Positions 1 to 11,347 of a DNA stretch of 11,347 bases are shown here, piece after piece. The translations under genes were made by a program, and so were the position numbers. The stretch lies in assembly GCA_946885765.1 (NCBI GenBank), contig CAMPHD010000069.1:1-11347 (forward strand), read 5' to 3'. Source of the stretch: an uncultured Thalassospira sp. GTDB lineage: Bacteria; Pseudomonadota; Alphaproteobacteria; Rhodospirillales_A; Thalassospiraceae. The notes beneath the pieces were generated by a model that worked only from the letters and a program-made list of their open reading frames with translations, did not search any database and was not told the DNA's origin. Each line of letters begins with the position of its first letter. Position 1 is the first letter of the stretch.

Positions 1-1843
1 TGGCGCCACTTTTGCCAAATGCCTTGGCGGCATCGCTGGCGTCTGCAAAGCCGTTATTGGTGATGGCCTCAATCCCGCCAGCTTCGAAAAAGTTTCGGGC
101 AAACATGGCGCGCGCGGTGTGCTTGGCAACCGGGCCCAGATTGGCCAGAAAGATTTGCGGAAATTTGCCGGTTGATGCCTTGTGGGCATCGGCACGATCC
201 CGCAGGGTTTCGAAACTTTCCGAAAGACGATGGGTTGGCAGCGGATCGATGGTTGTGCCTGCTGCCTTGCCATAAAGGGCTTCATACATCTGTGCGATGG
301 TGGCACCGGATTTGGCGGCCGTGATCAGATCATCAAGGCTGCTTCCGATTGCACCCTTGAACCCGGTCTGGCGGGCTTTGGCTTCCTTGCGGATCGTCGC
401 GAGATTCGGCGTATCGCAGGTGACTTTGGCCTCGGTGATATTGGGGAATTCCGACACCCCGGTCAGCGGATCACGCCGGGTGGCAATGCGGCTTTCGCGG
501 GTCTGCCAGATTTCCGAAATCTCTTTTTGCAGGGACCCGTCGGCAAGGGCCTTGATAATGCCGCCTTTGGCTTCAAGTGACTGGAACCGGCCCCAGGCAT
601 TAGATGCCAGTTCGCGGGTCAGGTTCTCGATGAACCATGACCCGCCCGCCGGATCGATCACGCGGTGAACGTTGCTTTCTTCCTGCAGGATCAGTTGGGT
701 GTTGCGCGCAATGCGGCGCGCAAAGCCATCGGGCAGGCCAATCAGATGATCATAGGGCAGGCAGATAACGCTATCGGCCCCGCCCAGACCGGCGCTCAAG
801 CTGGTGACGGTGGTACGCAGCATATTGACCCACGGATCAACCTTCGACAGCGCCATCTCGGCTGATACCGCATTGATCGTGATGGTGGCATCATCTACAC
901 CCGATGCCGAAAGAACGCGGCTCCACATCAGGCGAAGCGCGCGAAGTTTGGCAATCCCGGCAAAGAAATCGGTGCCAACCGCAACATTAAACGCAATCGC
1001 GCCCGCGGCCTGATCAATCACCATGCCGGTATCGGTCAGCGTCCGCAGATAGGTGACACCACCGGCCAGCAGGCAGGCAAGTTCCTGCCCATCGGTCGCA
1101 CCGGCATTATAGAACGGCGCGCCATTGACGGTGATGGCGGTGGCATGTGGGAAACGGTCGATCAGATCAGCGGTAATATCGGCGGCCTGTTTGATGGCAT
1201 CATTGGCGGAAACCGGAAGGCATCCTGTGGCGGCCAATGTGCCAATCGGATCAATGTTAAAGGCCGGGGCGGCGTCGCTTGCAAAATCGTCATCCGCGTC
1301 AGTGCTGTTTTCCGTATCCTTTTCAAGGCGCGCTGCCAGAATGGCGGCGGCCGGGATGGCGGCAGCACCGGCATCAAGTGCGATGGTCGCAAGGTTGGTA
1401 TAGACATCGTCAAGTGCGCAATCGAGATCGGCAAGACAGTGAATGGCGATGCCATCAATGCCAGCGTCGCCCGATGTGATATCCGCGCCTGCGCGTGCGG
1501 CGGCATCCAGACGCAAAAGAACCGACGTCGCGCCGTTTTCAAGATCGTCGAGAATCGCGGCATTGACCGATTTGGGATCGGGATGGGCATGAAGCTGTCG
1601 AATATCCCAGCCGCTGGCGGCGTCCTTGGCGTCGACGGCGGCACACAGGACCTGATGGATCAGGCGGGTGGCATCATCCTGATCATCGTTGGTGTAAAGC
1701 GGCTGCATCGCGAAACCGTCAAGCATCCTTGTGACCAGTTTCTTGTCAAAGGATGCGCCTTTCAGGCCGGATTCCGCCAGTTGACGCCAGCTCGCATAAT
1801 CTGCGGCTGGAAACTCTGAGGCCAGCTTTAACGGGTCTGTCAT
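1..1843 (-). CDS. mutA: Methylmalonyl-CoA mutase small (beta) subunit, 3' end beyond window
   Basis: The frame reads open from ATG at 1843 to the window edge, giving 614 residues with no stop. The large MutB subunit catalyses the adenosylcobalamin-dependent isomerisation of methylmalonyl-CoA and succinyl-CoA in propionate and odd-chain or branched-chain catabolism; MutA is its structural partner in the cytoplasm. Family signs are the NTQLILQEESNVHRVIDPAG block (391-400 onward, ending in GGSWFIE), EFPNI at 475-479, and a C-terminal cobalamin-domain-like fold from about residue 565. There the usual DxHxxG cobalamin ligand motif is replaced by LGPVAKH, as expected for the non-binding small subunit. 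Only the last tens of residues should be missing. The start is supported by GGGAGAG at 1847-1853, just upstream. The gene follows a long leader carrying a cobalamin riboswitch. mutB would be expected next, left of the window, but is not visible. Confidence 0.93.
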   Translation of the reverse strand, partial: MTDPLKLASEFPAADYASWRQLAESGLKGASFDKKLVTRMLDGFAMQPLYTNDDQDDATRLIHQVLCAAVDAKDAASGWDIRQLHAHPDPKSVNAAILDDLENGATSVLLRLDAAARAGADITSGDAGIDGIAIHCLADLDCALDDVYTNLATIALDAGAAAIPAAAILAARLEKDTENSTDADDDFASDAAPAFNIDPIGTLAATGCLPVSANDAIKQAADITADLIDRFPHATAITVNGAPFYNAGATDGQELACLLAGGVTYLRTLTDTGMVIDQAAGAIAFNVAVGTDFFAGIAKLRALRLMWSRVLSASGVDDATITINAVSAEMALSKVDPWVNMLRTTVTSLSAGLGGADSVICLPYDHLIGLPDGFARRIARNTQLILQEESNVHRVIDPAGGSWFIENLTRELASNAWGRFQSLEAKGGIIKALADGSLQKEISEIWQTRESRIATRRDPLTGVSEFPNITEAKVTCDTPNLATIRKEAKARQTGFKGAIGSSLDDLITAAKSGATIAQMYEALYGKAAGTTIDPLPTHRLSESFETLRDRADAHKASTGKFPQIFLANLGPVAKHTARAMFARNFFEAGGIEAITNNGFADASDAAKAFGKSGA

Positions 1844-1936
1844 GCTCTCTCCCGGTCGCGGTCCGATCTTTTCGGATCTGGTCGATTCTATTTTACAACG
1901 GATTCCCTCCGTCCGGTACACCCCGCCCGGTTCGGC
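1844..1936 (-). promoter_or_regulatory. Probable riboswitch expression platform and mutA ribosome binding site
   Basis: Between aptamer and mutA start, the minus-strand RNA can form two small hairpins: ACGGA/TCCGT (1898-1912) and TCCGA/TCGGA (1862-1876). The ribosome binding site GGGAGAG lies at 1847-1853. The segment ATCGGACCG (1859-1867) is perfectly complementary over 9 bases to CGGTCCGAT (2033-2041) inside the aptamer. That pairing excludes the 1862-1876 hairpin and ends 6 nt from the ribosome binding site. No hairpin followed by a U-run is present, so control of translation initiation is more likely than intrinsic termination. The role is inferred from base pairing only. Confidence 0.55.
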
Positions 1937-2067
1937 AGAAACAGAGCCATCTTTCGGTATCTGACTTATGCACTGCCAGAAACGGTGCATTTACAGTTGC
2001 GAGGGCAGCTTCGGCCTTGGTCATGGACATGCATCGGACCGTACCGAATTCCCGAAAGAATGTTTCC
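1937..2067 (-). ncRNA. Cobalamin (vitamin B12) riboswitch aptamer in the mutA leader
   Basis: Read on the minus strand, the leader contains the hallmark core GCTGCCCTCGCAACTGTAA (1991-2009) and a B12 box, AAGTCAGATACCG (1955-1967). The pairing fits the cobalamin family. An outer stem forms between GGAAACA (2061-2067) and TGTTTCT (1937-1943). A second closing stem forms between TCTTTCGG (2052-2059) and CCGAAAGA (1950-1957). A stem of TTCGG with CCGAA flanks the segment before the core. A hairpin ATGCAC/GTGCAT lies between core and B12 box. Such RNAs bind adenosyl-, methyl- or hydroxocobalamin and switch expression of the downstream gene. The aptamer ends about 93 nt before the mutA start codon. 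The exact ligand subclass cannot be told by eye, and the segment between the P5-like strands is longer than usual. Confidence 0.93.
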
Positions 2068-2092
2068 ATATCGCATCTGCGACATGGCGGTG

Positions 2093-2122
2093 TTTATAGC
2101 ACCCGCCTATAATTACGTAAAT
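2093..2122 (-). promoter_or_regulatory. Candidate sigma-70-type promoter of mutA leader
   Basis: On the minus strand, TTTACG (2117-2122) and TATAAA (2093-2098) are separated by 18 bp, matching 4/6 and 5/6 of the housekeeping consensus. Transcription would start near 2086, about 20 nt before the first strand of the riboswitch outer stem, which is what a riboswitch leader needs. Judged by eye, without a scored model. Confidence 0.45.
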
Positions 2123-2146
2123 AGGCATGGAAATACCTATTTACGT
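2115..2146. promoter_or_regulatory. Perfect 11-bp inverted repeat, candidate operator of mutA
   Basis: ACGTAAATAGG (2115-2125) and CCTATTTACGT (2136-2146) are perfect reverse complements separated by 10 bp. The first arm covers the candidate -35 element of the mutA promoter. A third CCTAT at 2106-2110 lies 15 bp before the ATAGG, so CCTAT/ATAGG/CCTAT recur at 15-bp steps. This looks like the binding site of a dimeric regulator. ACGT-containing operators are known for some acyl-CoA or branched-chain catabolism regulators, but I cannot assign a family. It is not a terminator, because no T-run follows on either strand. Confidence 0.5.
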
Positions 2147-2367
2147 CAATTTTGCGACCATCCATCAGTATTCCGTAACGTTATCCGTCTGAAAAATGGT
2201 TGTTTTCTGCCAAGGGTGAGGTTGATGAACGGATATTTATGGCGCGGCGCTGCCATTATACTTTGGCTGGATTGTGATGGTTTCTGGGAAAAAATGCGGG
2301 GTTTAACCAATTTGACATTTTCATCTGCCAGATTGGGGCTGTCCCAAATCTCGGAGTATTGCCATCC
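2147..2367. other. Intergenic region before the response regulator
   Basis: No convincing gene is seen in these 221 bp. It contains an isolated TTGACA (2312-2317) without a good -10 at the right distance, and TATACT (2257-2262) without a good -35. A 20-bp palindrome lies at 2331-2350. The open frames that cross it overlap the mutA regulatory elements or the response regulator gene and lack family features. Confidence 0.4.
2331..2350. repeat. 20-bp imperfect palindrome directly before the response regulator RBS
   Basis: The 20 bases read GATTGGGG then CT/GT then CCCAAATC: GATT pairs AATC and GGG pairs CCC, with one mismatched pair and a four-base centre. It ends one base before the TCGGAG that serves as ribosome binding site. 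It could be an operator or a leader hairpin limiting ribosome access; the sequence cannot separate these. Confidence 0.4.
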
Positions 2368-2790
2368 ATGAATGCGCTCAGCGCCGTGCCGCCCCGACCG
2401 ACACATGACGGTCTGGTTGCGTTTGCCGACGACAGCCCCAGCGCCAAAGCGGCCCTTGAAACCGTTTTGCGCCGTGCCGGGTATGACGTGGCAGGGTTTG
2501 ACTGTGCCGACGATCTGATCGACCAACTGGACGGTCTTTATCCGCGCGCGATTATTCTGGATCTTGAAATGCCCGGCATGAGCGGGTTTGAAGCCTTTTG
2601 CGAGATTCGCCGCCGCTTCCCCAACGCGGTGGAGGTGCCTGTTCTGTTTTTCTCGGCCCATTATGATGCCGATACGCGGGCACAGGCCGATGCCCTTGGT
2701 GCGGCTGACTTTATCAGCAAGGATGCAAGCCCGATGGTGGTGATCGAGCAGCTTAACCGGGCGCTCGATAAATCCATGAGCCATTGCTGA
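2368..2790 (+). CDS. Single-domain response regulator (receiver domain only)
   Basis: The 140-residue product is one CheY-like receiver domain with no output domain. The acidic pair is D21-D22, the phosphoacceptor is D65 in ILDLEMPGMSG, the switch residue is S96 in LFFSAH, and the conserved lysine is K118 in FISKD. All key residues are present, so it should accept phosphate from a histidine kinase and act by protein-protein contact. I chose ATG 2368, because the in-frame TTG at 2359 lies only 2 nt from the GGAG at 2353-2356 whereas ATG is 11 nt away. No kinase gene is adjacent; the nearest kinase in the window is more than 3 kb away on the other strand. It is transcribed alone, converging on phhA. 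Partner and process are unknown. Confidence 0.88.
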   Translation: MNALSAVPPRPTHDGLVAFADDSPSAKAALETVLRRAGYDVAGFDCADDLIDQLDGLYPRAIILDLEMPGMSGFEAFCEIRRRFPNAVEVPVLFFSAHYDADTRAQADALGAADFISKDASPMVVIEQLNRALDKSMSHC

Positions 2791-2915: not shown

Positions 2916-3806
2916 TCAGGCGTCCCGCCGTGGCGTCACATCACCCGCCTGCATAGCGATGGTGAGCTCCTCGTCCCCGTGAATATAATAAAGCTGATCA
3001 CCGGGAAGCGTGACTGCCGGATCAATCGCCGGACGCTGGGCGAGGCGGTCATAGATGGCCGCGAAATCCGCATCCATCGCGTCGAAAAGCTGCTGATAGT
3101 CGGTCAGCACGAAATAGGTTTTCTGGAAATCGTCAATCGCATAGTCGGTTGCCATCACCCGTTCGAGGTCAAATGCCACCCGGTTGGGGTGTGGGTCGGA
3201 CACGGAATAGATGGTTTCGGTCTGTGATGACAGCATGCCCGCCCCATAGGCGCGCAATCCGTGGTCGGTCATGATCAGGCCAAACTCGACCATGTACCAA
3301 TACATCCGTGCAAGTTTCTTGAGCCCGCCCTTGGCAATGGCTTCGGGGCCCTTGGCGCCGTAAGCCGCCAGATAATCGGCAAAGACCGGATCATAAAGCA
3401 TCGGCACATGACCAAAGAAGTCATGGAAGATGTCGGGCTCGACGAGATAGTCGATTTCCTCTGGCTTGCGCAGCCAGACGGTCACCGGAAAGCGCCGGTT
3501 GGCGAGGTGATCGAAAAATACATCATCGGGCACCAGCCCCGGCACCGCGACAAGGTGCCAGCCGGTGGCGGCATGAAGTTTTTCACTGACCCGGCCGAAA
3601 TGCGGAATGCCATCGGCAGCATCAAGTTTTTCAAGATTGCGGATATAGTCCGGGGCGGCATAGCCCGGCAGGATCGACTTCTGGCGGGCATAAAGTTTGC
3701 GCCAGAGGTCGTGTTCGGCCCCGGAATAGGATGCCCAGTCCTGGGCCACGGTGTAGTCATCATTGATGTGGCTGTAATCGCCGCGCAGATTTTTGTTCTG
3801 GTCCAT
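2916..3806 (-). CDS. phhA: Phenylalanine-4-hydroxylase
   Basis: This 296-residue protein matches the bacterial monomeric aromatic amino acid hydroxylases. They convert L-phenylalanine to L-tyrosine using O2, non-haem iron and a tetrahydropterin, feeding tyrosine and homogentisate catabolism in the cytoplasm. The iron ligands are visible: H128 and H133 in FHDFFGHVP and E174 in YWYMVEFGL, the spacing of the Chromobacterium enzyme (138, 143, 184). No regulatory ACT domain is present, as usual for bacterial forms, and the length is typical. The ATG at 3806 is preceded by GAGGAC at a suitable distance. It is divergent from an Lrp/AsnC regulator gene 142 bp away, which probably controls it, and ends in its own terminator. 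A pterin-4a-carbinolamine dehydratase partner is not in the window. Confidence 0.96.
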   Translation of the reverse strand: MDQNKNLRGDYSHINDDYTVAQDWASYSGAEHDLWRKLYARQKSILPGYAAPDYIRNLEKLDAADGIPHFGRVSEKLHAATGWHLVAVPGLVPDDVFFDHLANRRFPVTVWLRKPEEIDYLVEPDIFHDFFGHVPMLYDPVFADYLAAYGAKGPEAIAKGGLKKLARMYWYMVEFGLIMTDHGLRAYGAGMLSSQTETIYSVSDPHPNRVAFDLERVMATDYAIDDFQKTYFVLTDYQQLFDAMDADFAAIYDRLAQRPAIDPAVTLPGDQLYYIHGDEELTIAMQAGDVTPRRDA

Positions 3807-3948
3807 GACGGTCCTCGTTTGCTCCCTGATGAGAATTTCTGCATGGATTATTTTACATCAATTCAAATGTCATTTTCGCGCGATGTCGCGGCCAAAATGC
3901 ATTATGGTTGATCAAATATGACCGTATAAGCCAGTTTTGGGGCGAAAA
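3807..3948. promoter_or_regulatory. Divergent control region between phhA and the Lrp-family gene
   Basis: This 142-bp spacer must hold both promoters. It is AT-rich around 3838-3870. It contains a loose dyad with outer ACAT/ATGT around 3847-3870, a TTGATCAA palindrome (3908-3915), and a TATAAG (3925-3930) that could be the -10 for the plus-strand gene, although no good -35 is seen. These are candidate Lrp-type sites only; no element matches a defined consensus strongly. Confidence 0.35.
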
Positions 3949-4434
3949 ATGACCGATATGCTGTTGAGCCCAACCGACATCAAAATCCTGCAAATCCTTC
4001 AGCGCGACGCATCAATCAGCAATGTGCAACTGGCCGAAAAGGTTGGCATGTCGCCATCGCCCTGCCTGCGCCGGGTCAAGCAGCTTGAGGCATCGGGCAT
4101 CATCCGCCAGACGGTGGCGTTGCTCGATCGCAAGAAGGCCGGGCTTGGCGTGCTGGCAACCATTCAGGTCCGCCTGCAACGCCACACCGAAGAAGGGGCG
4201 GAGGATTTCGCCAAGGCGATGAACGACCTGCCGCAGATCATGTCCTGCTGGGCAATGACCGGGCGGCAGGACTTCCTTCTGGTGGCCCTGGCGCGCGATA
4301 TTGAAAGTTTTGGGGATTTCGTGACGCACAAGCTGTTGTCGATGCCCAATGTGCGTGATGTTCAGTCAAGCCTTGTACTTAAGGAATACAAGAATCAGAC
4401 GGCCATCCCGGTTGGTCATCTGGCAGGCGGATGA
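3949..4434 (+). CDS. Lrp/AsnC-family transcriptional regulator, probable phhA regulator
   Basis: The 161-residue protein has the two-part Lrp/AsnC build. An N-terminal helix-turn-helix (about residues 10-58) includes SNVQLAEKVGMSPSPCLRRV and the following QLEASGII. A C-terminal ligand-sensing and oligomerisation domain spans about residues 70-150, including the MTGRQDFLL segment. The length is standard. The start is ATG 3949 with GGGG 6 nt upstream; the earlier in-frame TTG at 3937 overlaps that ribosome binding site. Family members bind amino acids and often regulate an adjacent gene of amino acid metabolism. The divergent position next to phhA suggests it senses phenylalanine or tyrosine and regulates phhA and itself; this is inference from context. 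A terminator follows, separating it from the asparaginase gene. Confidence 0.92.
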   Translation: MTDMLLSPTDIKILQILQRDASISNVQLAEKVGMSPSPCLRRVKQLEASGIIRQTVALLDRKKAGLGVLATIQVRLQRHTEEGAEDFAKAMNDLPQIMSCWAMTGRQDFLLVALARDIESFGDFVTHKLLSMPNVRDVQSSLVLKEYKNQTAIPVGHLAGG

Positions 4435-4450
4435 AAGTTGTCGTGGCGCT

Positions 4451-4481
4451 GCACTGCGTCACGGGTGATGCTTGCTTTTTT
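4451..4481 (+). terminator. Rho-independent terminator after the Lrp-family gene
   Basis: GCGTCA (4456-4461), loop CGGG and TGATGC (4466-4471) form a stem with one G-U pair. It is extended by GCA (4451-4453) with TGC (4473-4475) across a small internal bulge, and is followed at once by six T (4476-4481). It lies 17 bp past the regulator's stop codon. Confidence 0.8.
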
Positions 4482-4544
4482 GGGGCGATTTCGGGCATAG
4501 GTTTGATCCTGTTTTGAATGCGCCAGTCATGGAGAGCCCCCAAG

Positions 4545-5567
4545 ATGTCTGCCAATTCTGCCAACCAGATTGCTGCCAATCCGATCCTTGTCGAAGCCAC
4601 CCGTGGCGGGATGGTTGAGAGTTTCCATCGCGGGCGGTATGTCGTGATGAAGGCCGATGGCACCGTGGTTGCCGAAGGGGGCGATATTGACGCGTTGATG
4701 TATCCGCGATCCGCGATCAAGCCGTTGCTGGCGATCCCGCTGCTTGAAAGCGGGGCGGCGGATGCGTTCGGGCTTGAGGACAAGCATATTGCATTGGCTT
4801 GTTCGTCGCATAATGGCGAGGAAGAACACGCGCAGACCGTTGCCGCATGGCTTGAGAAAATCGGGTTGTCGGTCGATACGCTGGCCTGCGCGCCGCATTA
4901 TTCATTGAGCCTGAACGCGGCGATCAAGCAGGCGTCCGATCATGTGAAATTGAGCAAGGCGCATAACAATTGTTCGGGCAAGCATTGCGGGTTTCTGACG
5001 ACCGCGCAGCATCTGGGCGATGATCCGGCGGGCTATATCGAGGAAGCCCACCCGGTTCAGCAGCGCCTGATCAGGGTTCTGGAAGAAATGGGCGATTGCG
5101 ATCTGTCGTTCACACCGCGCGGCATTGATGGATGCGGCATTCCGGTGATCGGCATGCGGTTGCGTGACCTTGGCCTTGCCATGGCACGCATGGCCGATCC
5201 GAGCGGATTGGCCCCCAAACGTATTGAGGCGATCAAGCGCATTCGCAGGGGATGTGCGCAAGCCCCGTTCATGGTGGCGGGCACCGGGCGTTTTTGCACC
5301 GGGATCATGGAAGTCTGCGGCGAGGATGCGTTGGTCAAGGTTGGGGCGGAAGGCGTTTATTGCGCCGCATTCCCTAAACAGGGGCTTGGCGTTGCCCTTA
5401 AGATCGATGACGGCACCCAGCGAGGGGCCGAGGTTGCGATGGGCGCGATCCTGCGCCAGCATGGCGTGATTGACGATGCCCGTGCCGAGACGCTTAAAAA
5501 GTATCTGACGCCGGTTCTGACCAACTGGGCGGGCAAATATGCCGGGGATTTGCGCCCCGCATTCTGA
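4545..5567 (+). CDS. L-asparaginase, Rhizobium etli type (Asparaginase_II family)
   Basis: The 340-residue protein belongs to the serine-lysine, zinc-containing asparaginase class typified by inducible R. etli ReAV, which hydrolyses L-asparagine to aspartate and ammonia. Residues aligning with the published ReAV site are present: S56 and K59 in RSAIK (ReAV 48 and 51), S88 in ACSSHN (80), C143 and K146 in NNCSGKHCGF (135 and 138), C197 in IDGCGIP (189), C251 (249) and K265 (263). The offset changes from 8 to 2, implying about six residues fewer in between. No signal peptide is seen, so it is likely cytoplasmic. I chose ATG 4545, with GGAGAG 8 nt upstream, over ATG 4518, which lacks a ribosome binding site. 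A small membrane protein gene follows after 12 nt, suggesting co-transcription. Confidence 0.92.
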   Translation: MSANSANQIAANPILVEATRGGMVESFHRGRYVVMKADGTVVAEGGDIDALMYPRSAIKPLLAIPLLESGAADAFGLEDKHIALACSSHNGEEEHAQTVAAWLEKIGLSVDTLACAPHYSLSLNAAIKQASDHVKLSKAHNNCSGKHCGFLTTAQHLGDDPAGYIEEAHPVQQRLIRVLEEMGDCDLSFTPRGIDGCGIPVIGMRLRDLGLAMARMADPSGLAPKRIEAIKRIRRGCAQAPFMVAGTGRFCTGIMEVCGEDALVKVGAEGVYCAAFPKQGLGVALKIDDGTQRGAEVAMGAILRQHGVIDDARAETLKKYLTPVLTNWAGKYAGDLRPAF

Positions 5568-5579
5568 TCTGAGGAAAAG

Positions 5580-5900
5580 ATGCACAGCATTGCGGCCTAT
5601 GCCGGAGCAGCAATTGCCGAAATCGCCGGATGCTTTGCGTTCTGGGCGTGGCTTCGGCTTGGCAAATCCGGGCTTTGGATCGTGCCGGGTATTTTGTCGC
5701 TGATTGTCTTCGCATGGTTGTTGACCAAGGTCGAAAGCGATTTTGCCGGGCGGGCCTATGCGGCCTATGGCGGGATTTATATCGCGGCGTCGCTGGGCTG
5801 GTTGTGGCTGATTGAGGGCAAAATGCCCGACCGATGGGACATGACCGGCGTTGCCGTTTGCCTTGTCGGGGCGGGGATTATTTTGTTCGCGCCGCGATAG
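5580..5900 (+). CDS. ynfA: YnfA/UPF0060 family four-helix inner membrane protein
   Basis: The 106-residue product is almost entirely hydrophobic, with four predicted membrane helices (about 5-25, 31-50, 61-78 and 87-104). It carries the family pattern with an early Glu (E14), [20 protein letters not shown] (58-77), the [10 protein letters not shown] loop (78-87) and the terminal PR. The YnfA family is related to small multidrug resistance transporters, and some enterobacterial members are reported to export cationic compounds; the substrate here is unknown. ATG 5580 has GAGG 5 nt upstream and lies 12 nt after the asparaginase stop, so the two are probably one operon without an obvious functional link. 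Its last 23 bp overlap the 3' end of the convergent histidine kinase gene. Confidence 0.92.
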
Positions 5901-7308
5901 CCGGTTTCTTTACTGCGTCGGGTTTGCCAGTCCGATCCTCGGCCGGGAGGAGGACATGGAATGTCGTGCCCTTGCCCATTTCGGTTTCAAACCAGATGCG
6001 TCCGCCATGCTTGATCTGCACGATGTCATGGGTGATGGCCAATCCCTGACCGGTGCCTTTACCGACTTCCTTGGTGGTGAAAAACGGGTTGAAGATTTTG
6101 GATCGGTTTTCCTTGGCGATGCCGGTGCCGTTATCGGAAATGCTGATCAGGATGCTGTCATCAAGAAAGGTGGTTTTGATTTTGATCTCGCCTTCTTCGG
6201 GCGCGCGCCCGGCGGCGTCAATCGCCTGCGCGGCATTGACGATCAGGTTGAGAAACACCTGATTGATTTCGTTGATATGACACGGAATATGCGGCAGTTC
6301 CGGTTCGTAGTTTTCAACCAGTTGTGCGTAATGTTTCCATTCGTTGCGCGATATGACGGTAACGTTTGACAGGACCCGGTTGATATCGGTCGCGGTTTTT
6401 TCAGCCCCGCCCGGATGGGAAAATTCCTTCATCGACAGGACGATACGCGCAACCTGATTGATGCCGTCAAGCGATTGCTGGGTTGCGTGCGGAATTTCAT
6501 CAAGCAGGAATTCCAGATCGGCATCGCGCATTTTGCGCGCAAAATTATTGAAGGTGTTTTCAGGCAGTTTGTCGCGATTCTGCCAGAGTGCCTGCAAGGC
6601 AAGACCCAGAATACGTGACAGGGCCCCGTAGCCGTCATTGAGGAATTTCAGGTTGTCGCGGATATACTGGCTGGGTGTGTTGATTTCATGCGCGATCCCG
6701 CCAGCAAGATGGCCGATGGCTTCGAGTTTCAAGGCTTCGCGCAATTCACCTTCGAGCTTTTGCTGCGATTCTTCTGCCTGTTTGCGGCGCGTGATATCAC
6801 GGAAAATGTAAAGGTAGCTCATTTCACCGGTGAAATTTGCCGGGCTGACGGTGATTTCCATCGGGAAGGTGTCACCATCAAGACGTTGTCCCATGGTTTC
6901 GGTATAGTCATAGCGCAGTGTGCCACTGCTGATATTGATGCAGCGGTTCAACAATTTGTGGCGTACCGTTGATTTGCGGTCGACGAACAGTGTTTCGACC
7001 GGTGTGCCCAGCATGGTTTCCATCGTGCCACGGAGCAAGGTGAGCGCAGAGTCGTTGCAATCGCAGATCCTTCCGGCACCATCGACAACTAGAATGCCTT
7101 CAACCACACTGTTGATGATGGTTTTAAGACGTTGATTGGACTCTGTTTCGCGTTTTTTCTGTTCATTCAGCAGGGCATGAATCTGTTTAAGGGCTTCTTC
7201 GCTGACATCAAGCTGATCAATGGCATCAAGCAGGTCATCGGTTCCCGTCGAATCACTGGCGGGATGCATGATTTTGAGGTTGTCGTCATTCTGCCGTTTG
7301 TCCGTCAT
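5878..7308 (-). CDS. Cytosolic PAS-domain sensor histidine kinase
   Basis: The 476-residue protein has no membrane segment or signal peptide. In order: a charged N-terminal coiled-coil-like stretch (about 25-62), a PAS domain (about 62-175, with [12 protein letters not shown] at its end), a dimerisation region with phosphoacceptor H207 in [10 protein letters not shown], and a HATPase domain. The ATPase boxes are visible: N354/N358 ([10 protein letters not shown]), DNGTGI (392-397), IFNPFFTTK (405-413) and GKGTGQGLA (417-424). All catalytic elements look intact, so it should be an active kinase sensing an internal or PAS-bound signal. It is the last of three minus-strand genes, 27 nt after a receiver-domain protein gene, so the two upstream receivers are its likely targets. 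The start ATG 7308 has GGAA 8 nt upstream. It ends within ynfA, leaving no room for a separate terminator before that gene. Confidence 0.95.
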
Positions 7309-7335
7309 GCCTGCATTTCCGTTATTTCAAACGTT

Positions 7336-8520
7336 TTACGACGGCGGTGATCCGCCACGACGAATGCGTATTGGTTCGCGAAACTTGTGTATTTCCTGAA
7401 ATACGCGGAGGCGCTGCAACTGGACTTCGGAAAGGTGATTGCCATGTGTCAGCAGGACATGGCCTTCGACGGTTTCGATATCGGTCATCAGGAAGTCATT
7501 CACGCGCAGTGATTTGAGAAAGATGTCCTGTTCGCGCCCTTTGGGATGGGCTTTGATATCGTAGGAATCGTCAACGATGGCAAGAAGATCGGATATATGA
7601 TCGAGCAGGGCCGGGTCATATCGATGCGGATGATCCTGCAATTCATCAAAATTCTGGGCCAGAGGCATGTCGCTGGTACTGAGTTCGGCAAGGTCATTGA
7701 GGATGCGCAATATGCGTGCGCCTAATGGAATGTCTGTTTCCTTGGGGCTTTCGCCAACAGGAAAGCCCGACCCGTCGAAGTTCTTGAACTGCAGGTAAAC
7801 GATATCGCCGATATGGTTCAGGCGCGGAATATTGGCAATCAGCTGTCTGCCGACTTCCGGTGTACGGTTAAGCAGATCGCGTTCAAGCGGTTGCAGAACC
7901 TTGCCCATGGCAAGCCGTGCCAACGTATCGGGCGGCAGGGATACCATGCCGATTGGCGCAAGAAGGGCCGCGAGGCCCAGTTCCCATGGTTGCGGATAGC
8001 CGATATCACGCGCAATCATGTCACACCATGATTTCACCCGCATGGAACGCCCGAATATCAGGGGATTTAGCTGGGCCAGAACATCGGTCAGAACCTTGAC
8101 GCTACCGGCCAGTGTCTGTTCAAGCAGATCGCGTTCCGCCGTGATCAGGTGATGCTGGCGAATGGCATCATTGATGCCCTGTTCGAGCATTTCGTCATCG
8201 CAGGGTTTGCTGAAAAAGCGGAAAATCTTCCCGCGATTGATGGCCTCGACGGCGGTGTGCTGATCGGCGTTGCCGGTTAACATCATGCGTACCGTATCAG
8301 GGCTGATCCGGCCGATTTCGGTCAGAAGTTTTATGCCATCCATGCCGGGCATACGCATGTCGGCAATGCAGACGGCAAAGGGGCCGTCTTCCATCAGAAT
8401 GCGCAGGGCTTCCTGTCCGCCGACCGCGATTTCAAAATCGAATTTGCGGCGCATTTTACGCTGGAGCGCATGAAGCAGGTTTCTGTCATCGTCGACGAAT
8501 AGGACTTTGCTTTTTTCCAT
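7336..8520 (-). CDS. Response regulator with degenerate HD-GYP-like output domain
   Basis: The 394-residue protein starts with an intact receiver domain: D10-D12 acidic cluster, D54 in ADMRMPGMDG, T82 and K105 in FSKPC. After a helical linker (about 120-150), residues 140-345 resemble an HD-GYP phosphodiesterase fold. However, ALLAPIGMVSLP (185-196) replaces the usual ALLHDIGK motif, so the catalytic His-Asp is lost. QFKNFDGSGFP (244-254) replaces HHExxDGSGYP; the later T220-P221 replaces His-Pro. It therefore probably cannot cleave cyclic di-GMP and may act as a binding or docking domain. I chose ATG 8520, directly before the receiver, over ATG 8586, which would overlap the upstream gene and add a non-conserved 22-residue tail. 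The ribosome binding site is weak and the start is 11 nt after the preceding stop, suggesting translational coupling. Confidence 0.88.
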   Translation of the reverse strand: MEKSKVLFVDDDRNLLHALQRKMRRKFDFEIAVGGQEALRILMEDGPFAVCIADMRMPGMDGIKLLTEIGRISPDTVRMMLTGNADQHTAVEAINRGKIFRFFSKPCDDEMLEQGINDAIRQHHLITAERDLLEQTLAGSVKVLTDVLAQLNPLIFGRSMRVKSWCDMIARDIGYPQPWELGLAALLAPIGMVSLPPDTLARLAMGKVLQPLERDLLNRTPEVGRQLIANIPRLNHIGDIVYLQFKNFDGSGFPVGESPKETDIPLGARILRILNDLAELSTSDMPLAQNFDELQDHPHRYDPALLDHISDLLAIVDDSYDIKAHPKGREQDIFLKSLRVNDFLMTDIETVEGHVLLTHGNHLSEVQLQRLRVFQEIHKFREPIRIRRGGSPPS

Positions 8521-8531
8521 GGCCACGATCT

Positions 8532-9752
8532 TTACTGGGTCAGGGTTTTGTATTTGTCGGCTACAACGCGCGCAATCATGCGCCATTCTTCAAGCTGATC
8601 GGCTTTGCCGATGCTTGTGAGGTAATCCATGTCGATATGGCTTTCGAATTCCTTGCCTGCTTCTTCGAGTGCGACCTGACGTGTGAGGTCCTGGGCGACA
8701 TAGATCGCGGTCAGGACATTCATTTCACGATGCGGTGTATCCATCGGGCGGTGATGATAGGCAACGGCCTGGACCACGGGTGCGGGGAAACCCCATAATC
8801 CCAGAAGATAGGCGCCGATTTCCGGGTGCCCTGCCCCGAATTGTTCAATTTCGGCCTGTTCGATAGGGACATGTTCGTTTTCAACCCGTTCAATCACTTT
8901 GGTCATTTCTGCGTTGCGATTGGCGTAAAGGATCAGGCTGCCGACGTGGCTTAGCATACCGGTTGACGGGACGGCGTGGCAGATGGCGCGCGGAAGCTTT
9001 TCATATTCTGCAATAAGGGCTGCGGTGACGCCGATCTGCTGGCTGCGGTGGCAGAGGCGCAGCAGTTTGTCGGCTTCGCTTTTAGGGCCGTCAAAGCCGC
9101 GGAAAATGCCGACGAAAAGTGCCAGTGCCTTAAGCGTTTCGGTGCCGATCATGCGCACGGCATGAGAAACCGAGCTTATTTTCTGGGCGATGGCGAAATA
9201 GGCGGAATTGGTCAGTTTAAGGACTTCGGCGGTCAAGGCGATGTCGGAAGAAACGATCCGGGTGATCTGTTCCTGCGAGATTTTCGGATTTTCCAGTGCG
9301 GTAACGAGCCGTAAATAGGTGTCGGGCGGAGAGCTTAGCGAATTGATGCTGGCGACCAGAGACCGCAATTCCGGGCGAGTCAGAAGACTGCGCAGGTCAA
9401 GGGCGTTTTCGATTGTTTCGATCAAAAGGGAGTCTTCGCAAGGTTTGGCGAGATACTGATGCGCCGGTCCGACAGTTCGTAAAACAGCCTCTTCTTCGGC
9501 AAAGCCGGAAAGAATGATTCGTGTGGCATGCGGGTGGGTTTTTTGCAATGTGCCCAGCAGCGTTGCCCCATCCATTCCGGGCATGCGCATATCCGATACG
9601 ATGACATCTATCTGCATGGTTTTGGCCAGTTCCAGCGCATCGTTTGCGTTGGCAGCAAATACCATTTCCCAGTCGGGACGCATGCCGCGCAGCCGTCGAC
9701 GCAGGCCGCTCAGGATGTTTTCGTCATCGTCAACGAACAGGATGCTTTTCAT
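8532..9752 (-). CDS. Response regulator with HDOD output domain
   Basis: The 406-residue protein has an N-terminal receiver domain with all key residues: D8-D10, phosphoacceptor D54 in SDMRMPGMDG, S82 in ILSGF, K103 in LAKPC. An HDOD domain follows (about 135-335). It includes ISQEQITRIVSSDIALTAEV, LKLTNSAYFA and HAVRMIGTETLKAL, and later the GAGHPEIGAYLLGLWGFP segment and YHHRP. HDOD domains are non-enzymatic relatives of HD hydrolases found in signalling proteins, often with receiver domains. It is the first gene of the three-gene signalling operon. ATG 9752 begins right at the receiver; only a weak GGA lies upstream. The upstream 350-bp region must hold its promoter. The kinase two genes downstream is its likely phosphodonor, by context only. 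Confidence 0.93.
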   Translation of the reverse strand: MKSILFVDDDENILSGLRRRLRGMRPDWEMVFAANANDALELAKTMQIDVIVSDMRMPGMDGATLLGTLQKTHPHATRIILSGFAEEEAVLRTVGPAHQYLAKPCEDSLLIETIENALDLRSLLTRPELRSLVASINSLSSPPDTYLRLVTALENPKISQEQITRIVSSDIALTAEVLKLTNSAYFAIAQKISSVSHAVRMIGTETLKALALFVGIFRGFDGPKSEADKLLRLCHRSQQIGVTAALIAEYEKLPRAICHAVPSTGMLSHVGSLILYANRNAEMTKVIERVENEHVPIEQAEIEQFGAGHPEIGAYLLGLWGFPAPVVQAVAYHHRPMDTPHREMNVLTAIYVAQDLTRQVALEEAGKEFESHIDMDYLTSIGKADQLEEWRMIARVVADKYKTLTQ

Positions 9753-10102: not shown

Positions 10103-11347
10103 ATGGTTTCACGTACAGAGCTGATTGAAGCGATCAAAAAGCATCAGCGATATGTATTGAAACAGCCTGGTGGCAAGCGCATGCAGCTTCGCAACGGGAA
10201 CCTTTCGCGCATCAAGATGAGCAAGATCAGCCTTGAAGACGCCATCCTGCCCGGATCGAATTTTATCCAGGCCGTCATCAATGATGTCAGCTTTAACTTC
10301 TGCGACCTTTTCGGAACCAACTTTGTCGAAGCCGATCTTGAGGGATCAAGCTTTGTGCGGGCGGATTTGCGCGGGGCGAATATGGCACGCGCCAAGCTGC
10401 GCAATGCCAACCTCAAGGGGGCCGATCTTCGATCAGGCGTTATGATTGTCATGGATGCCGGGCGCGAACGCCGGGTCAAGCGCGCAACTGATCTTGCCAA
10501 CGCGGATATGGAAGGGTCGATGCTGGCGGGGGCCAATCTGGCCGAAAGCAATATGTCGGGTTCCAGTCTGATTGATGCAGATCTTAGCGATGCCAACATG
10601 TTTGCGGTCAATCTTGCCGGGGCGGATTTATCGGGCTGCAACCTTTCGGGTGCGAAGATGAAGAACGCCAACCTCAAGGGGGCGAAGCTTCAGAATGCGG
10701 TCCTGGCGGGAACGGATTTGAGCGGCGCAAATATGCGCAATGTCGATATGACCGGTGTTGATTTGTCCCAGGCCAATACCGCCAACAGCCTTGGCAGCAG
10801 GGCGCTTGCCCCGTTGCCCGACGATATTCGCGATCTTGTGAATGCGCATAGTGAATGGTTATCGACAAACGGGCAGGTCGGGACGCCATTGAATGCAACC
10901 GGGCGTGATCTTTCGGGAATGGATTTTTCCGGTCTTGATCTGTCTGCGGCATGTTTCGATGAGTGTATCTTGCGTGGTGCGCTTTTCATCGACACCATCC
11001 TTGCCATGGCGTCATTGCGCAGTGCGGACCTGAAACTTGCCAAGATGAACAGTGCAACATTGAACGGTGCCCGGTTGACAGGGGCGAACTGCCAGAAGGC
11101 GGTTTTTCAAGGCGCGCGTTTTGGTGCGGTCGAGCAACGCGACGGTCAGGGGCATAAAACCGGCGTGATGTGGCATGCCGATCTCAGCGGTGCGGATTTT
11201 TCCAAGGCCGATATCCGCAATGCGATCTTCACCAATCCGAAGATGGCCGATGTCAAAATGGTGCGCGCCAATATTTCCGGGGTTGCGTTTGGGGAAACCG
11301 ATCTGAGCAGTGTTGATTTTGACGGGGCAAATGTCGGAGCCATTCTG
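10103..11347 (+). CDS. Pentapeptide-repeat protein, 3' end beyond window
   Basis: The frame is open from ATG 10103 to the last base, giving 415 residues without a stop. After a short charged N-terminus (about 1-26), tandem A(D/N)LxX repeats dominate, e.g. EADLEGSSFVRADLRGANM (77-94) and ANLKGAKLQNAVLAGTDL. Such repeats fold into a right-handed quadrilateral beta-helix, usually a protein-binding scaffold; the function here is unknown. The repeats are interrupted by a charged loop (113-129), a non-repeat linker rich in polar residues (about 226-266, including LPDDIRDLVNAHSEWLSTNG), and another loop (342-356). No signal peptide or membrane segment is seen. The ribosome binding site is poor: GGGGG lies about 14 nt upstream, but no other in-frame start exists. 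It is divergent from the signalling operon. Confidence 0.9.
   Translation, partial: MVSRTELIEAIKKHQRYVLKQPGGKRMQLRNGNLSRIKMSKISLEDAILPGSNFIQAVINDVSFNFCDLFGTNFVEADLEGSSFVRADLRGANMARAKLRNANLKGADLRSGVMIVMDAGRERRVKRATDLANADMEGSMLAGANLAESNMSGSSLIDADLSDANMFAVNLAGADLSGCNLSGAKMKNANLKGAKLQNAVLAGTDLSGANMRNVDMTGVDLSQANTANSLGSRALAPLPDDIRDLVNAHSEWLSTNGQVGTPLNATGRDLSGMDFSGLDLSAACFDECILRGALFIDTILAMASLRSADLKLAKMNSATLNGARLTGANCQKAVFQGARFGAVEQRDGQGHKTGVMWHADLSGADFSKADIRNAIFTNPKMADVKMVRANISGVAFGETDLSSVDFDGANVGAIL
10406..10683 (+). repeat. Exact 17-bp direct repeat inside the pentapeptide gene
   Basis: GCCAACCTCAAGGGGGC occurs at 10406-10422 and 10667-10683, in the same reading frame, encoding ANLKG(A). It reflects the tandem pentapeptide structure and may mark a recent duplication of coils or a site of recombination between them. 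Confidence 0.6.

Follow-up and report, generated by a model that had tools for sequence, protein, structure and literature searches.

A short, diverged cobalamin riboswitch before the methylmalonyl-CoA mutase genes of Thalassospira, next to a palindromic operator-like element

In the part of the literature available to our survey, cobalamin riboswitches are placed mainly on genes for B12 synthesis or import, or on genes that replace B12-dependent enzymes. An earlier note on the present DNA, a stretch of 11,347 bases from an uncultured Thalassospira sp., a marine bacterium (the window, by which we mean that whole stretch), proposed such an element before mutA, whose product itself depends on B12, and doubted on physiological grounds that an ordinary OFF switch would be placed there. 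The locus raises the questions of whether the element is a cobalamin riboswitch at all, which genes stand behind it, and whether the cofactor would lower or raise their expression. The features on which the argument rests are collected in Table 1.

Table 1. Coordinates of the features in and around the mutA leader (window positions)
Feature	Position	Strand	Basis
mutA, methylmalonyl-CoA mutase small subunit, cut by window end	2..1843	minus	PF01642, E 2.7e-115
Putative Shine-Dalgarno CCGGGAG of mutA	1849..1855	minus	kept in 28/29 genus leaders
H2, small hairpin just upstream of ribosome-binding site	1862..1876	minus	folding of 27 leaders
H1, small hairpin, conserved GGGAAUCC-like motif at 1900-1907	1898..1912	minus	alignments, folding
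P13 hairpin CCGGGCGGGGUGUACCGG (L13 at 1917-1926)	1913..1930	minus	comparison of 27 leaders
Cobalamin aptamer, full RF00174 model length	1934..2101	minus	cmscan 37.0 bits, gathering 31.5, E 1.6e-06
P3, closes P3-P6 junction core	CTTTCGG 2052-2058 with CCGAAAG 1951-1957	minus	sequence reading; 8-bp inverted repeat I8; RF00174 alignment
B12 box / J6/3, AAGUCAGAUACC (AAGTCAGATACC), degenerate, one base short	1956..1967	minus	RF00174 alignment, leader alignment
P6, short simple hairpin instead of long class-I extension	1968..1990	minus	leader length comparison
L5, UGCCCUCGC, kissing-loop half in aptamer	1999..2007	minus	RNAalifold pairing with L13, 27-row alignment
P1 5' strand, overlapped by -10-like element, transcription doubtful	2084..2095, pairs with 1939-1950	minus	sequence pairing
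Putative -10 TATAAA, TGC before it	2093..2098	minus	sequence reading
-35-like TTTACG, spacer 17	2116-2121	minus	sequence reading
Palindromic operator-like element AAATAGGTATTTCCATGCCTATTT, overlaps -35	2119..2142	minus	inverted repeat I1

RF00174 was the sole Rfam family above any gathering score in a scan of the whole window, and a second scan with more permissive filters, covering 361 bases and E values up to 1, returned nothing besides this match, which lies 90 bases from the mutA start codon (1843, minus strand). The Rfam search suggested in the earlier note thus bore out its cobalamin riboswitch on the mutA strand, at 37.0 bits against a cut-off of 31.5; the span first given, 1937-2067, was in the right place but slightly too small. 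The core GCTGCCCTCGCAACTGTAA was found on the minus strand by reading, as claimed, and the RF00174 and leader alignments showed the P3-P6 junction core as GGGAA and GC-UGCCC-GCAACUGU. Both closing stems, P3 and P1, can be drawn, of which P1 is doubtful, and the B12 box is recognisable but altered, differing from the RF00174 consensus AGCCAGGAGACC as well as being shorter. Because the match stands directly before mutA in 26 of 29 Thalassospira genomes, above cut-off in 24, it represents more than chance. By these sequence comparisons we regard the element as near certainly a cobalamin riboswitch, short and diverged, that belongs to the known family and has a minimal aptamer. Its likely ligand is adenosylcobalamin, on which the mutase, an enzyme of propionate breakdown, depends as cofactor.

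The conservation of this arrangement was examined across the genus, where mutA of this type occurred in all 29 genomes. Adjacency of RF00174 to mutA was judged by reading the positions of both searches; besides the 24 genomes above cut-off, two carried the match below it (G154, 30.7 bits, and G004, 28.2 bits). This survey of the leader in relatives, which the earlier note had recommended, strengthens its identification. No RF00174 match preceded mutA in G051, G153 and G164 (paired by contig position with loci L024, Thalassospira lucentensis DSM 14000, L014, Thalassospira lohafexi 139Z-12, and L018, each without a match over its whole length), which lack the aptamer and P13 together and retain both the palindrome and the TGCTATAA box. 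In a MutA tree built from the window, the 29 Thalassospira genomes and three loci as outgroup, and given without branch supports, G051 and G153 were sisters and G164 stood apart inside the genus, so that one ancestral riboswitch, lost twice, is the simplest reading and the one that reads best from these sequences; the window itself fell beside G165 and G003. In the leaders of G051 and G153 (L057, L102), the riboswitch may have been deleted between the GGGAATCC copies of aptamer and platform, one copy being left. A protein search with mutA gave 33 loci, among which L001-L024, at 60-95% identity, were titled Thalassospira in 22 of 24 cases, the others being MAGs titled Rhodospirillales (L011) and Roseicyclus (L004). 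The contig of the latter, probably a binning error, carries a mutA resembling that of Thalassospira (94%) together with 127 bases of leader end (95%).

The comparison was then widened to 150 genomes of the order, of which 138 contained RF00174 and 122 contained mutA-like matches at E values up to 1e-40; among the matches listed, 49 with at least 38% identity were taken as the small-subunit type. Upstream DNA was scanned for 48 of these (30 loci, L051-L080; 16 regions, L081-L096; L127 and L128), G136 being omitted because its match starts at base 33 of the contig. RF00174 above cut-off was found upstream in 12 of 14 Thalassospira loci versus 2 of 34 others, namely L081 (G126, 124.3 bits) and L082 (G151, 112.1 bits). 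Both of these have full-length aptamers and a different platform, suggesting that the origin or recruitment of riboswitches at mutA was probably not a single event. G126 presents a B12 neighbourhood, in which mutB and meaB (frames identified by reading) come after mutA, and a second riboswitch and a cobN-like gene (cobN was its best model, below cut-off) come next; the gene upstream of the switch there resembles, by eye, the end of a TonB-dependent receptor. Among six distant mutA loci (L025-L030), the only two RF00174 matches were both in L026, not directly before the mutA-like match, and L031-L033 gave no match. In L026, a Desulfobacterales contig, they lie at 5733-5962 and 8394-8619 on the minus strand.

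Since the window ends inside mutA, the surroundings of this gene were read from relatives. For the window's mutA, TIGR00642 was the best NCBIfam model, below its cut-off, and the complete protein of the close relative L001 (Thalassospira lucentensis MCCC 1A02072) gave the same outcome. In L001, where frames of at least 150 aa were listed to about 9.8 kb past the mutA start, the gene order was mutA, mutB, meaB, about 890 bases, and a DusC-like gene. It agrees with the earlier claim that the genes behind the riboswitch need adenosylcobalamin. The survey of genes downstream of mutA thus yielded mutB and meaB and, in L001, no B12-synthesis genes, the gap of about 890 bases holding small frames only; the suggestion of a wider operon with B12-related genes did not hold there. 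Two similar small frames of 51 and 53 aa lie in this gap on the opposite strand (L001 15376-15531 and 15830-15991, minus). Elsewhere in the window, at positions 2919-5564 the gene for an aromatic amino acid hydroxylase of the biopterin-dependent type (PF00351) is oriented divergently to that of an Lrp/AsnC regulator, and an L-asparaginase II gene follows; positions 5881-9752 (minus) hold a signalling cluster of a PAS histidine kinase, an HD-domain response regulator and an HDOD-domain response regulator; and 10103-11347 (plus) a pentapeptide-repeat protein, open at the window end.

The aptamer kept P3, P4, P5, P6 and the L5 core, and P4 and P6 showed two-sided changes that preserve pairs in the 27-row alignment. 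From the P5 exit to the B12 box we counted 20-51 nt in the 27 mutA leaders versus 67-95 nt at the other riboswitch loci of Thalassospira, where 11 of 13 gave a value (the start anchors of the two sets differ by about one base), so the P8-P12 extension in P6, which defines class I in the available text of PMC11260477, is missing from these 27 leaders. The same text describes class IIb by GGAA in J3/4 and UCU in J6/3. GGGAA was present in all 27 rows, and the bases before ACC were GAU, GAAU, GGAU, GAUU, GAUC or GAUG, with UCU in none of them. Taken together, the aptamer is, on this alignment, minimal and class-II-like. The mutA aptamers also scored lowest among the RF00174 copies in the genus, at 28-54 bits versus 65.7-132 bits for the other copies above cut-off.

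P13 was identical in 25 of the 27 leaders, with a single-base change each in L054 and L106. RNAalifold on the 27 rows showed UGCCCCCGC of L5 to be complementary to GCGGGG-U-GUA of L13 over nine columns; since the program draws this L5-L13 pairing as a nested helix, it cannot display P13. The window has U in place of the majority C in L5, which gives a U-G pair and keeps all nine kissing pairs, and among the 27 rows L054 (G004) alone breaks one L5-L13 pair and lacks another. This complementarity across the leaders suggests that the kissing-loop device has been kept. RNAalifold additionally pairs the P3 5' strand with CCGG of the ribosome-binding site over 4 bp, a pairing that we take as unproven.

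P13 and mutA are separated by two hairpins, first the small H1, which carries a GGGAATCC-like motif, and then H2. The folding z-scores of H2 ran from -3.64 to 1.12 over the 27 leaders (mean -1.30), with 0.15, not above shuffles, in the window, and H2 was larger and better supported solely in the other large clade. The distance from the end of P13 to the mutA start was 69 nt in the window and 56-112 nt across the 27 leaders, so P13 does not cover the ribosome-binding site, unlike in the cbtAB leaders of the same genomes (L035-L037), where by reading the site follows P13 directly. P13 placed directly before the ribosome-binding site is the usual layout of translational OFF control; the mutA leader is therefore built differently. 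The putative Shine-Dalgarno sequence CCGGGAG was kept also in two of the three leaders without a riboswitch. No intrinsic terminator was found on the mutA strand at window positions 1780-2380, the single site found there being on the opposite strand, and the leader of the window thus lacks the arrangement of a terminator-type OFF switch. Two candidate devices were dropped: the GGGAATCC after P13 as a competitor for P4, on account of its resemblance to the aptamer's GGGAATCC, fails in the window, where P4 is UUCGG/CCGAA; and an upstream ORF with a GTG start within L13, noticed on inspection of a few leaders, had no conserved frame.

The start of the transcript bears on how much of the aptamer is made. 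The TGCTATAA box reads as an extended -10 and was identical across the aligned leaders, including the three without a riboswitch; the stricter rule of a promoter scan gave zero promoter sites in the region of the window scanned. P1 pairs well in the window clade and in other registers or poorly in other species, and as the -10-like box also lies over its 5' strand, P1 is maybe partly untranscribed. The transcript may start near P2 and leave out most of P1, which would spare the junction core, the kissing loop and P13.

The palindrome stood before mutA in all 29 genomes, in one of them (G164) with a single mismatch. Searching with the pattern AAATMGGTATTNNNATGCCKATTT and at most one mismatch, we found a further site in 24 of the 29 genomes, G150 having two; the pattern reversed as a control gave none under the same rule. 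The strict pattern was used solely, because in a looser search (up to three mismatches, seven genomes) the control equalled the real hits in three genomes. At all three further sites that were read (L121-L123, 3 of 24), the next gene was the same acyl-CoA ligase, which in L122, where it is cut by the locus end, best matched propionate--CoA ligase models, below their cut-offs. Additionally, prpB was found above the family cut-off in 2 of 29 genomes, with weaker relatives in all 29. The palindrome is thus, as the shared sites suggest, probably an operator common to mutA and a prpE-like gene that ties the operon to propionate or propionyl-CoA, and its presence at both points to a regulon for propionate to which B12 would add a second input.

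From these parts we propose a model in which ligand binding in the P3-P6 junction would favour L5-L13 kissing and hence P13, by analogy with characterised relatives; the parts of this step are present in the leader. P13 formation would most likely lower expression, by hindering translation initiation or by Rho-dependent transcript loss and not through an intrinsic terminator, so that mutase production would go up under cofactor shortage and down when supply is ample, while the palindromic operator shared with the prpE-like gene would add control by propionate or propionyl-CoA. As a whole, this model of a minimal, genus-wide riboswitch whose P13 lowers mutA-mutB-meaB expression and a palindrome that adds propionate control has, in our judgment, slightly more than an even chance of being correct; the low score of the window's aptamer, just 37 bits, and its shortened B12 box count against it.

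The sign of control is not fixed by the sequence, given that no intrinsic terminator is present and that P13 lies 56-112 nt before mutA. We somewhat favour the OFF direction. By analogy, repression is the rule in the literature surveyed, with one activating case, and the riboswitch before mutA of Veillonella parvula is described as repressing GFP in Bacillus subtilis (PMC9600662), which weakens the objection that OFF control of a B12-dependent enzyme makes little physiological sense. The cbtAB leaders of the same genomes, whose layout is that of translational OFF control, count on this side too. We also folded 20 riboswitch leaders freely, without the aptamer, and with P13 forced, taking as measure how open six bases at the ribosome-binding site were on average (the input was 24, with L014, L018 and L024 lacking P13, L011 dropped for one changed base in P13, and L004, which is cut, excluded). 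Relative to the aptamer-free fold, openness under forced P13 was lower for 15 of the 20 leaders and higher for 5, a weak OFF lean that is not decisive because it depends on short pairings of the site, in one state with the P13 arms and in the other (4 bp) with the coding start.

The opposite sign, in which B12 and P13 raise mutA-mutB-meaB expression and, together with the operator, form an AND gate of propionate and B12, appears possible but clearly less probable. The enzyme is of no use without its cofactor, and in the 27 of 29 genomes without prpB above cut-off the B12 route is probably the main one, weaker prpB relatives occurring in all 29. The P13 arms and the Shine-Dalgarno sequence share the self-complementary CCGG, so P13 could free the site, which in some leaders does pair with the P13 arms when P13 is not forced; however, this pairing is just 4 bp, CCGGGAG persists in two of three leaders that have no riboswitch, and the computed accessibility of the site rose in merely the five leaders noted above. 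One natural activating corrinoid riboswitch is reported (PMC10653944), but it acts by way of a terminator, of which the mutA strand at 1780-2380 has none, and the sole tested mutA leader that we found in the accessible literature is an OFF switch. If the ON direction were nevertheless right, this would be the second natural activating corrinoid riboswitch by the literature surveyed, and a terminator-free one. We consider it rather unlikely that all parts of such a proposal hold, that is, a B12-activated riboswitch without a terminator on a B12-dependent enzyme, stacked on a propionate operator as a genus-wide two-input AND gate.

Still less probable, in our view, is a decaying element with little regulatory effect in the window clade, where the palindromic operator would do the work. 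The mutA copies have the lowest scores of the RF00174 copies above cut-off in the genus, two losses are inferred, the B12 box of the window clade is one base short, and G004 has an L5 deletion and an L13 change; against this, the window clade retains P13 and L13 unaltered, the C to U change in L5 leaves nine kissing pairs with one U-G, and P3 and P4 are intact by reading. That the match is a chance resemblance, as the modest score of the window on its own might suggest, is hardly credible, as conservation already disfavours it: 24 of 29 genus genomes exceed the gathering score at the same place, with core and kissing loop conserved. A conserved switch on a B12-dependent enzyme, together with natural losses that keep the promoter, makes the sign and purpose of cofactor control testable within one genus.

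Among the matches listed in our literature search, whose titles and abstract openings were consulted, we found no report of a Thalassospira cobalamin riboswitch before mutA. The nearest known system is the corrinoid riboswitch of V. parvula, which likewise stands before mutA and has an L5-L13 kissing loop as described in PMC9600662; the comparison of the two aptamers is here one by description. In the portion of that work available, 38 of 86 reporters were repressed, and 37 of these 38 have a predicted terminator, unlike the Thalassospira leader. Two other reports, as available in part, also concern such riboswitches. In Bacteroides thetaiotaomicron, a locus for cobamide transport that is described as having cobamide riboswitches spans the gene numbers of mutAB, BT_2090-2091 (PMC8941943), which again weakens the objection to OFF control, and in the skin microbiome riboswitches are described near cobamide-dependent and cobamide-independent enzymes alike (PMC9600381). 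In Xylanibacter ruminicola, mutA and mutB transcripts rose with cobalamin, with no riboswitch near according to the available text (PMC11575231), so B12 can raise mutAB by other routes.

The Mycobacterium tuberculosis ppe2 riboswitch shares with the mutA leaders the lack of the P8-P12 extension, GGAA in J3/4 and, in the text available, the lack of UCU in J6/3 (PMC11260477). That paper proposes a class IIb variant for it, and a review from 2025 assigns it, in the passage available, to class IIa as a variant (PMC12713380). It is described as acting through a translated upstream ORF (PMC11260477), whereas no conserved upstream ORF was seen by reading the mutA leaders. The first activating corrinoid riboswitch to be reported, before cobT of Alkalihalobacillus halodurans, shares the kissing loop and P13, and P13 is described there as an antiterminator (PMC10653944), whereas on the mutA strand at window positions 1780-2380 no terminator exclusive with P13 was found.

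The other cobalamin riboswitches of Thalassospira itself (cbtAB, cobU/cobP, btuF-type and cobT leaders, with gene names by reading) belong to the same RNA family and follow the same kissing-loop logic. In the btuF-type leaders L038-L041, P13 is, by reading, followed at once by GGAG(G) and the ATG of a short upstream ORF before the main gene, a layout reminiscent of the riboswitch-controlled upstream ORFs of M. tuberculosis. These other riboswitches differ from the mutA element in their longer aptamers, higher scores and targets in synthesis and in cobalt or B12 uptake, and in the cbtAB leaders also in the ribosome-binding site that adjoins P13, while the btuF-type P13, CCGGGCGGGGTGCCCCGG, is close to that of mutA.
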